Of a stretch of DNA of 64,000 bases, positions 52,987 to 57,260 are shown piece by piece. The notes beneath the pieces are model-generated. The model was not told where the DNA came from, did no database searches, and was given only the letters and a program-made list of their open reading frames with translations. Numbering within the stretch: position 1 is the first letter of the stretch; each line of letters opens with the position of its first letter. Source of the DNA: Cloacibacillus porcorum (GTDB taxonomy: Bacteria > Synergistota > Synergistia > Synergistales > Synergistaceae); contig NZ_CP016757.1 in assembly GCF_001701045.1 (NCBI RefSeq), positions 1,915,501 to 1,979,500 of the forward strand, written 5' to 3'. Made by a program: the position numbers and the translations under genes.

Positions 52987-54339
52987 TTAAAGCGCCTCGA
53001 TCCTCTCAGCGGCGATCTTTCGGAACCACTCGCCTACCTCTTCGGCGTCCTTTTCATAGCCCGCGCGGCCCATAAGGCCGTAAGTATATTTCTTACCCTG
53101 CTCGACGCCGGGCTGGTCGAAGGGATTGATGCCCATCATGCGTCCCGTGAGCGCCGTCAGATATTCGTAGAAAAAGACCAGCGCCCCGACGGTCTCCGCG
53201 TCGAGCTTTTCAAGCTCCAGCCAGACGAGCGGATGGCCGGACTTCACGATCGCCGCCGCGGTGCTCTTCGCCTCGAGGTTCAGCATCGCGCCGATTCCCT
53301 GCCCATCAAGATACTTGAGCGGCGAAAGGGCCTCGTGCTCTATAGCCGGCACTGAAAGTTCCACGCCGTGACCCTCTGCGCATATCAAAGTGAAAAACTT
53401 GTCGTCGGGGCCCTCGGTGTAGAGCTGCACCTGCGAATGCTGGTCTATTGCGCCGAGCGCGCGCACCGGCGTCGTCCCGAGTCCATTTTTGCCGAGGCTC
53501 TCGGCCCAGAGCTGAGCGTACCACTCCGCGAAGTAGGCCATCTTGCTTGAATAGGGCATAAGGACGGACATCGGGCGTCCCTCCCTCTCGTGCAGCAGAT
53601 GGATCGCGCCAAGCTTCAGCGCGGGATTTTTATCAAAATCTTTCTCCGCGGTTAAAAAATCCCTCATCGCGGCGGCTCCTTTGAGCAACGCGGGAGCGTC
53701 GATGCCGAGCGCAGCGGCGGTGACAAGCCCCGCGGGACAAAGCACGGAGTAACGTCCGCCGACGGAGGCGGGAAGCTCCATCACGCGGCAGTCGGAGCCG
53801 TTCGCGAAGGCACGGAATATCCCCTTTTCCGGGTCGGTGATCACGAGGATGTCGGCGTCACTTTGCCCCTTTTTAAGCAGCTCGCTGCGGTACCAGAGGA
53901 ACTGCGTCATCGTCTCTGCGGTGGCGCCCGATTTACTGACGCCGACGAGCGCGACGCGCCCCTCCTTTACGCGCTCCCATATTGAGAGCGTCTTATCAGG
54001 ATCGGGATTATCCGCGAGATAAAACTTCGGCCCCGGCGTGCTCTCATTGTAAAAACCGTCCAAAAGCGCCTGATTCAGCATCAGGTTTCCCAGAGCGGAG
54101 CCGCCGATGCCTACCTGTATCACGCTGTCGTAGCCCGCAAGCCATGCCGCCGTCTCCTCTATCTCTTCGACCGGGGAATCCGGCAGCGCCAGCCAGCCGT
54201 GTCCCTCGGTACAGGAGGGCGTCTCCGCGAGCCATCGCTGCGCGGCCAACGCCGCCGCGCCAAAACTCTCTTTCAGTTCAGTAAATGTCGTTGTGCTCCC
54301 GCCCAATGATGCGCCAAATGAAAATGAAATTTTCTTCAT
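52987..54339 (-). CDS. pgi: Glucose-6-phosphate isomerase
   Basis: 450 residues from the ATG at 54339. SIS-type sugar isomerase: GIGGSALGNLMLNQALLDG (phosphate-binding, about 78-96), GVSKSGATAETMTQF, the PASVGGRYSVL region and the catalytic His/Lys regions near ALGAIDQHSQVQLY and the C-terminal FDQPGVEQGKKY. It interconverts glucose-6-phosphate and fructose-6-phosphate. Typical length for the short bacterial group. Monocistronic. Confidence 0.95.
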   Translation of the reverse strand: MKKISFSFGASLGGSTTTFTELKESFGAAALAAQRWLAETPSCTEGHGWLALPDSPVEEIEETAAWLAGYDSVIQVGIGGSALGNLMLNQALLDGFYNESTPGPKFYLADNPDPDKTLSIWERVKEGRVALVGVSKSGATAETMTQFLWYRSELLKKGQSDADILVITDPEKGIFRAFANGSDCRVMELPASVGGRYSVLCPAGLVTAAALGIDAPALLKGAAAMRDFLTAEKDFDKNPALKLGAIHLLHEREGRPMSVLMPYSSKMAYFAEWYAQLWAESLGKNGLGTTPVRALGAIDQHSQVQLYTEGPDDKFFTLICAEGHGVELSVPAIEHEALSPLKYLDGQGIGAMLNLEAKSTAAAIVKSGHPLVWLELEKLDAETVGALVFFYEYLTALTGRMMGINPFDQPGVEQGKKYTYGLMGRAGYEKDAEEVGEWFRKIAAERIEAL

Positions 54340-54482
54340 CGAAAACACCGGCCTTCTGCATGAATGTGAACAACAAAAAAATAGCGACGGCTGGCTCCAG
54401 GCCCGCCGTCACTATAATATACCCAATCTCTCTTTTTTTCACTCTCCGTCCGCCTCTAAAGAGTGTAAACGGCGTCAGGTTT

Positions 54483-54728
54483 TCAGGAAATCAGGTTATT
54501 TTCCTTGAGGGCCGCCTCCAGCTCTCCGGGGTTATAGCCGACGACGAACCTATCGCCGATGAGGGTGACCGGCACGCCCATCTGTTTCGTCTTTTTTACA
54601 AGCTCCATCGCCGCCGCCCGGTCTGCAGAGACGTCCACGGTCGTATATGCCACCTTAAGATTGTCAAGGAACTCCTTGACCTTAGTGCACCACGGTCAGG
54701 TCTGTGACGTGTATACCTTTACTTCCAT
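54483..54728 (-). CDS. Selenocysteine-containing glutaredoxin-like protein (UGA at codon 11)
   Basis: 81 residues if the in-frame UGA at 54696-54698 is read as selenocysteine. The product reads MEVKVYTSQT-U-PWC then KVKEFLD, so U-P-W-C takes the place of the CPWC redox motif of YruB-type glutaredoxins; downstream it keeps MGVPVTLIGD (cis-Pro) and the GY binding turn (VVGYNPGELE). Immediately after the UGA, GTCAAGG and CCTTGAC form a 7-bp stem with loop AGTT, 15 bases on, meeting the bacterial SECIS pattern (G among the first two loop bases). AAGGAGCGG precedes the ATG. Standard gene callers would miss or truncate it. Confidence 0.85.
54660..54695 (-). promoter_or_regulatory. Putative bacterial SECIS element
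   Basis: Hairpin directly 3' of the UGA in the glutaredoxin mRNA: 15-base spacer, stem GTCAAGG/CCTTGAC, loop AGTT. The spacing of about 22 nt from UGA to loop lies in the known bacterial range. Confidence 0.7.
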
Positions 54729-55011
54729 ATTTATATCACCGCTCCTTAAAGTTATTTTAAAATCGTTTCACTTATTATATTATACCCCATAAACTCTAAA
54801 TAGTCCCCCGCATAAAAGACAGATGTTTTTTCGCAAAAAACCTTCCTTTTAGCGTCCGTACCATTCCTCCAAAAATTCTTTTACGGTTGGTTTGCCCTTT
54901 TATGCTTAGGCACATTGCATTATTTACGAAATTGCGTTAAATTTATAGCCAGTTTGCGTAAATTGGGAAACGAGGCATAAATTGCTCTTACATTCTTAGA
55001 GGAGGTACATC
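54729..55011. promoter_or_regulatory. Divergent control region; promoter of the NfnAB-like pair
   Basis: AT-rich gap of 283 bases. A plus-strand promoter TTGCAT (54915-54920) and TAAATT (54938-54943) has a 17-base spacer. TTGCGTTAAATT and TTGCGTAAATT form a near-direct repeat around it. A strong GAGGAGG lies before the nfnA ATG. No gene is seen. Confidence 0.55.
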
Positions 55012-55857
55012 ATGTTCAAAATCGTATCAAAGCAAAAGCTTGCGCCGAAAGAATTCGACATCTGGGTCGAAGCTCCGCGCATCGCGAATCACGCGAAGGC
55101 GGGCCAGTTCGTCGTTCTCCGCGTCGACGACTCGGGAGAGAGAATCCCCCTCACAATCGCCGATTACGACAGCGAGAAGGGGCTTATCCGCCTCATCTTC
55201 CAGGTTGTAGGCAAGACGACGGCTCTCATGTCCGGACTCGGCGTCGGGGACTGCATCCAGGACATCTCCGGCCCTCTCGGCACTCCCAGCGAGATCGAGA
55301 ACTACGGCACGGTGCTCATGGTCGGCGGCGGCGTCGGCATAGCTGCCCTCTTTCCCATCATCAAATCCCTGAAACTCGCAGGCAACAAGGTCATCACCAT
55401 CCTCGGCGGACGCACCTCGGACCTCGTGATCATGAAGGACGAGTGCCGCAAATACTCCGACGAACTGATCATCACCACCGACGACGGCTCCGAGGGTATG
55501 AAGGGCGTCGTTACCGAGGCTATGAAGATGGTAGTCGAGCGCGGCGAAAAGATCGACCGCTGCTGGTGCATCGGCCCCTCCATCATGATGAAGTTCGGCA
55601 CCAAGGCCGCCAAAGAACTCGGCCTTCCCATCTGGGTTTCGCTTAACCCGCTGATGGTCGACGGGACCGGCATGTGCGGCTGTTGCCGCGTGACGGTCGA
55701 TGGCAAGATATTCTTTGCCTGCGTCGACGGCCCCGAATTCGACGGGCACAAGGTCAACTGGGACGAGTTCATGAGCCGCCTCCGCCAGTATAAAGACGAA
55801 GAAAAAATTTCCATGGAAAAATATGAAGCAGAAGTAGGTGAACCGACATGGCTGTAA
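55012..55857 (+). CDS. NfnA/SudB-like ferredoxin-NAD(P)+ reductase subunit
   Basis: 281 residues. FAD-binding N-domain with RIPLTIADYD (about 43-52), NAD(P)-binding domain starting VLMVGGGVGIAALFPI (about 103-118) and a C-terminal [2Fe-2S] region GTGMCGCCRV and FACVDGPEFDGH. With its partner it forms an NfnAB-type complex (electron-bifurcating transhydrogenase) or sulfide dehydrogenase. The downstream gene overlaps by 10 bases. Bifurcation fits an anaerobic amino-acid fermenter (inference). Confidence 0.9.
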   Translation: MFKIVSKQKLAPKEFDIWVEAPRIANHAKAGQFVVLRVDDSGERIPLTIADYDSEKGLIRLIFQVVGKTTALMSGLGVGDCIQDISGPLGTPSEIENYGTVLMVGGGVGIAALFPIIKSLKLAGNKVITILGGRTSDLVIMKDECRKYSDELIITTDDGSEGMKGVVTEAMKMVVERGEKIDRCWCIGPSIMMKFGTKAAKELGLPIWVSLNPLMVDGTGMCGCCRVTVDGKIFFACVDGPEFDGHKVNWDEFMSRLRQYKDEEKISMEKYEAEVGEPTWL

Positions 55858-57260
55858 CATTCTCAAAGTGGAAGACCCCCATTAAAGAACAGGATCCTGA
55901 GGTACGTAAAGGCAATTTCGGTGAAGTTTGCCTCGGCTATAGCCTTGAAGAGGGACAGCTTGAGGCCGGACGCTGCCTCCAGTGCAAAACGAAGCCCTGC
56001 ATCGCGGGCTGCCCCGTCAAGATCGACATCCCCGCCTTCATCAAGTGCGTCAAAGAGGGCGATATGGCCGGCGCCGCCGAAGTAATGGATAAATACACGA
56101 ACCTTCCCGCCGTCTGCGGACGCGTCTGCCCGCAGGAATCACAGTGCGAAGGCCTCTGCACCGTCGGTAAGATGAAGGACTTTGAGCCTGTCGCCATCGG
56201 CAAGCTTGAGCGCCTCGTCGCCGACTGGAAATACGCACAGGAAAATATGGCTCCCAAGGCCTACGAGGGCGAAAAGAAGGGCAAAGTCGCGGTAGTCGGC
56301 TCCGGCCCCTCAAGCCTCACCGTCGCTGGCGACCTCGCGAAGATGGGCTACGAAGTAAAGATATTCGAAGCCCTTCACGCGGCCGGCGGCGTCCTCATCT
56401 ACGGCATCCCCGAATTCCGTCTCCCCAAGAAGATCGTCAAGATGGAGATCGAGGCGATGCAGAAGCTCGGCGTAGATATCGAATGCAACGTCGTCGTCGG
56501 CAAGACGATCACCATGCAGGAGATCATGGAAGAATATGACGCCTGTTACATCGCGGTCGGCGCGGGCGCGCCTCACTTCCAGGGCGTCCCCGGCACCACG
56601 CTCAACGGCGTATACTCCGCCTCCGAGTACCTCACAAGAATCAACCTCATGCACGGCTATGAGTTCCCGAAATTCGACACCCCCGCAAAAAAGGCGAATA
56701 AGGTAGTCGTCATCGGCGGCGGCAACGTCGCGATGGATGCCGCCCGCTCCGCGAAGCGCCTTGGCGCCGAAGAGGTTACGGTAGTCTACCGCCGTTCGCT
56801 CGCCGAACTCCCCGCGCGTATCGAAGAATACCACCACGCCGTTGAAGAGGGCATCATCTTCAACTGGCTCACCAACCCGACCGAATATGTCGACGACGGC
56901 AATGGACAGCTTAAGGGCGTCAAATGCATCAAAATGGAGCTCGGCGAGCCCGACGCCTCCGGCAGACGCCGCCCCGTTCCCGTCGAGGGCAGCGAGTTCT
57001 TCATCGAGGCCGACTGCGCCATCGAGGCGATCGGACAGGGCTCCAACAAAGTCCTGCTCTCGACCTTCCCCGAGATGAAGCTCAACAAGTGGGGCTACAT
57101 CGAAGCCGACGAAAAGACCGGCGCTACCTCCGTTCCCGGCGTATTCGCGGGTGGTGACATCGTCACCGGCGCGGCCACCGTCATCCTCGCGATGGGCGCC
57201 GGCAAAGACGCCGCCGTGGCGATCGACAAATACATCACAGAAAAGAAAGCCGCGAAGTAA
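55848..57260 (+). CDS. gltA: NfnB/GltA-type NADPH-dependent flavoprotein (glutamate synthase small subunit family)
   Basis: 470 residues. N-terminal Fe-S motifs CLQCKTKPCIAGCPVKIDIP (about 44-63) and CGRVCPQESQCEGLC (about 90-104); FAD fold VAVVGSGPSSLTVAGDLA (about 146-163) and NADPH fold VVVIGGGNVAMDAARSAKR (about 285-303). C-terminal VFAGGDIVTGAATVILAMGAG. The stand-alone family is annotated as homotetrameric glutamate synthase, but with the adjacent small subunit NfnB is more likely. The exact acceptor cannot be read from sequence. Confidence 0.9.
   Translation: MAVTFSKWKTPIKEQDPEVRKGNFGEVCLGYSLEEGQLEAGRCLQCKTKPCIAGCPVKIDIPAFIKCVKEGDMAGAAEVMDKYTNLPAVCGRVCPQESQCEGLCTVGKMKDFEPVAIGKLERLVADWKYAQENMAPKAYEGEKKGKVAVVGSGPSSLTVAGDLAKMGYEVKIFEALHAAGGVLIYGIPEFRLPKKIVKMEIEAMQKLGVDIECNVVVGKTITMQEIMEEYDACYIAVGAGAPHFQGVPGTTLNGVYSASEYLTRINLMHGYEFPKFDTPAKKANKVVVIGGGNVAMDAARSAKRLGAEEVTVVYRRSLAELPARIEEYHHAVEEGIIFNWLTNPTEYVDDGNGQLKGVKCIKMELGEPDASGRRRPVPVEGSEFFIEADCAIEAIGQGSNKVLLSTFPEMKLNKWGYIEADEKTGATSVPGVFAGGDIVTGAATVILAMGAGKDAAVAIDKYITEKKAAK

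Follow-up and report, generated by a model that had tools for sequence, protein, structure and literature searches.

A predicted selenocysteine-containing, YruB-type glutaredoxin in Cloacibacillus porcorum

INTRODUCTION

Bacterial SECIS elements and selenocysteine (Sec)-containing glutaredoxins are both established (PMC1088965, PMC1794560, PMC13188914), as the preliminary description of the DNA studied here had said. Sec-glutaredoxins with a UxxC site were present in the Sargasso Sea set of 2005, which held ten such sequences (PMC1088965), and in 2006 they were reported from Geobacter, Alkaliphilus, and Moorella (PMC1794560). PMC9312934 and PMC13188914 cite experimental work by Kim et al. (2011) on glutaredoxin (Grx), which is a listed selenoprotein family. 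The published model of the bacterial SECIS element comprises a stem of 4 to 16 bp and a loop of 3 to 9 nt with a G in the first two positions, a UGA-to-loop distance of 16 to 37 nt, and a folding energy of -7.5 kcal/mol or lower (PMC13188914).

Here, we analyzed a glutaredoxin-like gene (grx) in a stretch of 64,000 nucleotides from Cloacibacillus porcorum, referred to as the window. The protein resembles the known Sec-glutaredoxins in its PF00462 domain, in the predicted Sec at the first Cys, and in a bacterial SECIS-type hairpin just downstream; it differs from them in being nearest to the YruB type (TIGR02196) and in occurring in Synergistota. It matches the YruB family over its full length, but Sec would replace the Cys of that family, and the score falls just under the curated cutoff. 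The UXX-star families (NF041114, NF041211, and NF041212) are likewise small, glutaredoxin-like Sec proteins; however, the C. porcorum protein scored below their cutoffs (28.5 versus 72, 32.3 versus 100, and 49.2 versus 66, respectively) and keeps the second Cys. The pairing of Sec-Grx with Sec-MsrA from the work of Kim et al. has no sign here: MsrA is present, but its frame contains no UGA, and it was rejected as a Sec-MsrA partner of grx.

RESULTS

The grx gene occupies positions 54483 to 54728 on the minus strand and comprises 81 codons and a terminal TGA, running from the ATG at 54728-54726 to the TGA at 54485-54483. The preliminary description had given these coordinates exactly, together with a complete glutaredoxin-like frame, but had left the strand unstated; a plus-strand reading of 54483-54728 was rejected because no glutaredoxin frame is found there. 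The putative ribosome-binding site AAGGAG is directly readable 5′ of the ATG on the same strand (54742 to 54747, ends approximate), and the sole internal stop of the frame is a UGA at codon 11 (54698-54696), the first Cys position of a C-P-W-C site; both features had been described earlier and were recovered as such. If this UGA specifies selenocysteine (U11 in UPWC; 54696 to 54698, minus strand), the predicted product of 81 residues begins with MEVKVYTSQT-U-PWCTKVKEFLDNLK, and its full reading is MEVKVYTSQT-U-PWCTKVKEFLDNLKVAYTTVDVSADRAAAMELVKKTKQMGVPVTLIGDRFVVGYNPGELEAALKENNLIS. When C was put for U, residues 3 to 62 matched Pfam Glutaredoxin PF00462 (E value of 6.4e-18; 65.2 bits versus a cutoff of 22.9), and residues 3 to 75 matched the NCBIfam YruB-type model TIGR02196 (E value of 3.9e-25; 88.1 bits versus a cutoff of 88.55). 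The sequence matches in the PDB were glutaredoxins (7c10, the best at 8e-13, and 4tr0), and together with the PF00462 match they fix the fold family of the product. When the window was scanned by codon usage for further UGA genes, the candidates that ranked higher resembled antisense or overlapping frames and were set aside.

The gene (with its upstream region, 54483-55011 of the window) sits between divergent nfnAB-like genes and the phosphoglucose isomerase gene pgi, an order common to several Synergistaceae genera. The downstream neighbor pgi lies at 52987 to 54348 on the minus strand (PF00342, 3.1e-26). On the plus strand, an NfnA-like ferredoxin-NADP reductase subunit (55012 to 55857; PF10418), which is the same neighbor in relatives, is followed by an oxidoreductase resembling NfnB and the glutamate synthase small subunit (55848 to 57260; PF14691 and PF07992). 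G161, G164, and G128 show the same nfn-grx-pgi order, whether their gene is the Sec or the Cys form; nfnB lies outside the G161 stretch.

Downstream of the UGA, at 54663 to 54680 of the minus strand, the candidate SECIS hairpin forms a perfect 7-bp Watson-Crick stem (GUCAAGG/CCUUGAC) closed by the loop AGUU. It had been described previously as a 7-bp hairpin with a G-containing 4-nt loop starting 15 nt after the UGA, and we found exactly this arrangement (GTCAAGG-AGTT-CCTTGAC, loop at 22 nt, folding energy of -16.5 kcal/mol). All four properties, namely, stem length, loop, distance, and energy, fall within the published model. In random synonymous recodings of grx, an equal or better hairpin score arose in 1.6% of the trials and an energy as low or lower in 0.2% (observed, -16.5; mean, -8.3 kcal/mol), and such a hairpin accompanies 1.3% of the TGAs found across the window. 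Against dinucleotide shuffles, the short stretch gave a weak z score of only -1.68. A search with Rfam SECIS_1 (RF00031) matched neither the genome nor any of the control genomes and thus carries no information.

A genome carrying a Sec-encoding gene should also hold selA, selB, selC, and selD, a check suggested beforehand, and all four are present. The whole genome contains one tRNA-Sec (selC) above the cutoff (77.4 bits), SelA (561.6 bits) with an adjoining SelB (380 bits), both above their cutoffs, and SelD (321 bits, above the cutoff), whose own frame contains an in-frame UGA. In the same genome, the GrdA frame contains a UGA (TECFV-UGA-TAAG), and a GrdB frame passes through one (LTST-UGA-GTCTRCG) that is accompanied by a GG-loop hairpin (L062). 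SelD appears to be a selenoprotein itself (TSG-U-AAKI; G000:C1:1842426-1843355), and its UGA is followed by the hairpin AGCTCC-GGC-GGAGCT with a GG loop (L054, about 1924-2010). The genome also holds unusually many frames of the GRDB family (PF07355), eight full length and one partial (G000:C1, L062-L065). Eight Sec grdB genes have been reported for a different strain, MFA1, which possesses the complete Sec machinery and absolutely requires selenium (PMC10838667).

The comparison set consisted of 183 genomes of the order Synergistales, 101 of which contain a homologue; viral contigs, searched likewise, yielded only two short, distant matches. In the alignment proposed as a check in the preliminary description, 32 distinct homologues have Cys where grx has its UGA, and six further genes (in G164, G022, G128, G127, G130, and G117) have a UGA at the identical codon; selA is present in all six of these genomes. 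An additional TGA flagged in G117 (L031/L046) proved to be the terminal stop and not an active-site codon. Every one of the seven UGA genes has a hairpin with a G in the loop, a stem of 7 bp or more, and the proper distance from the UGA, but only 1 of the 32 distinct Cys homologues does. The associated Fisher P value of 5e-7 ignores kinship and overstates independence, since the seven UGA genes represent about five lineages. This comparative contrast is the strongest argument that the hairpin exceeds chance. The stem register varies by lineage, with the loop lying either 22 to 23 nt or 19 nt 3′ of the UGA. The single exception among the Cys genes, L057, is sister to three Sec genes. L057 (G124) and the matching L068 (G125) are Cys (TGT) homologues that retain a near-perfect 9-bp SECIS-like hairpin; they may represent a former Sec gene that recently reverted to Cys.

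The closest homologue, L013, is a Cys form (TGC) that is 90% identical and lacks the hairpin. Such close Cys relatives, which make up the nearest genes in the same genus and family, would fit a pseudogene, in which a nonsense mutation had killed a Cys glutaredoxin and the remainder was decaying. However, the frame is intact to its end, and after the UGA it differs from L013 at 3 first, 4 second, and 34 third codon positions, a third-position bias indicating that this part is constrained by purifying selection rather than decaying. Decay 3′ of the UGA, named beforehand as evidence that would speak against a selenoprotein, was seen in none of the related genomes, which hold intact Cys forms and the six UGA forms instead. 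Given these six genes with their hairpins and the presence of the Sec machinery, a pseudogene is highly improbable. A sequencing error that turned TGC into TGA in the assembly appears equally improbable: a single base does separate the TGA from the Cys codon of L013, but such an error would not bring along a perfect SECIS-type hairpin that is absent from the Cys homologue and is matched in so few of the synonymous recodings. Within its 18 nt, the hairpin differs from L013 by six bases as read directly, of which four improve pairs and one supplies the loop G. Selenium-free reading of the UGA by another tRNA (Trp or Cys), for which no evidence emerged, is the least probable explanation, because UGA is also the ordinary stop of this same gene, tRNA-Sec and SelB are present, and the codon aligns with Cys and not with Trp.

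On the gene tree, Sec is scattered, with five state changes, at least four of them under well-supported branches. The C. porcorum grx gene branches within a set of Cys genes (those of G161, G132, G122, and G123), which favors a recent change from Cys to Sec.

DISCUSSION

We conclude that grx almost certainly encodes a Sec-containing, glutaredoxin-like (YruB-type) thiol-disulfide oxidoreductase with Sec at UGA codon 11, as judged from sequence comparison. This reading draws on a glutaredoxin domain whose UGA falls exactly at the catalytic Cys and on a genome with the complete Sec machinery and UGA-containing SelD, GrdA, and GrdB genes. It further draws on the six same-codon homologues, the hairpin contrast, the purifying selection after the UGA, the conserved neighborhood, and the five of six hairpin differences from L013 that either make the stem better or provide the loop G.

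By analogy with the known mechanism, SelB with Sec-tRNA would bind the hairpin just 3′ of codon 11, and Sec would be inserted where C-P-W-C has its first Cys, the nucleophile. The Sec would then attack disulfides or other oxidized substrates, and the remaining Cys14 would resolve the intermediate. The genome was searched for a gamma-glutamylcysteine ligase of the PF04262 type, and none was found, whereas two control genomes, including that of E. coli, gave matches. The lack of a PF04262 ligase makes a thioredoxin-reductase-type system a more likely reductant than self-made glutathione.

Sec probably replaced Cys recently in this lineage through the change from TGC to TGA and mostly synonymous, hairpin-building substitutions. 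Somewhat better than even, in our estimate, are the chances that this was an in-place conversion at one syntenic locus, with the SECIS element born via a handful of mostly synonymous changes; a Cys gene of a different genus (g6) that retains a near-perfect hairpin suggests the reverse step.

The C. porcorum Sec-glutaredoxin is a well-supported new, perhaps already listed, example of a kind known since 2005. The deep-Sep study, which screened the genome of strain CL-84 (GCA_001701045.1), arrived at 18 known selenoprotein genes without any new ones (PMC12013277); grx is probably among these 18, which are itemized in the supplement and not in the main text. The gene adds a sound Sec-glutaredoxin for Synergistota, a selenoprotein-rich phylum, and illustrates how easily annotation loses such small selenoproteins. 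Its main use is evolutionary: a single syntenic orthologue, present in Sec and Cys versions that are 81 to 90% identical, exposes the gain or loss of a SECIS element directly.
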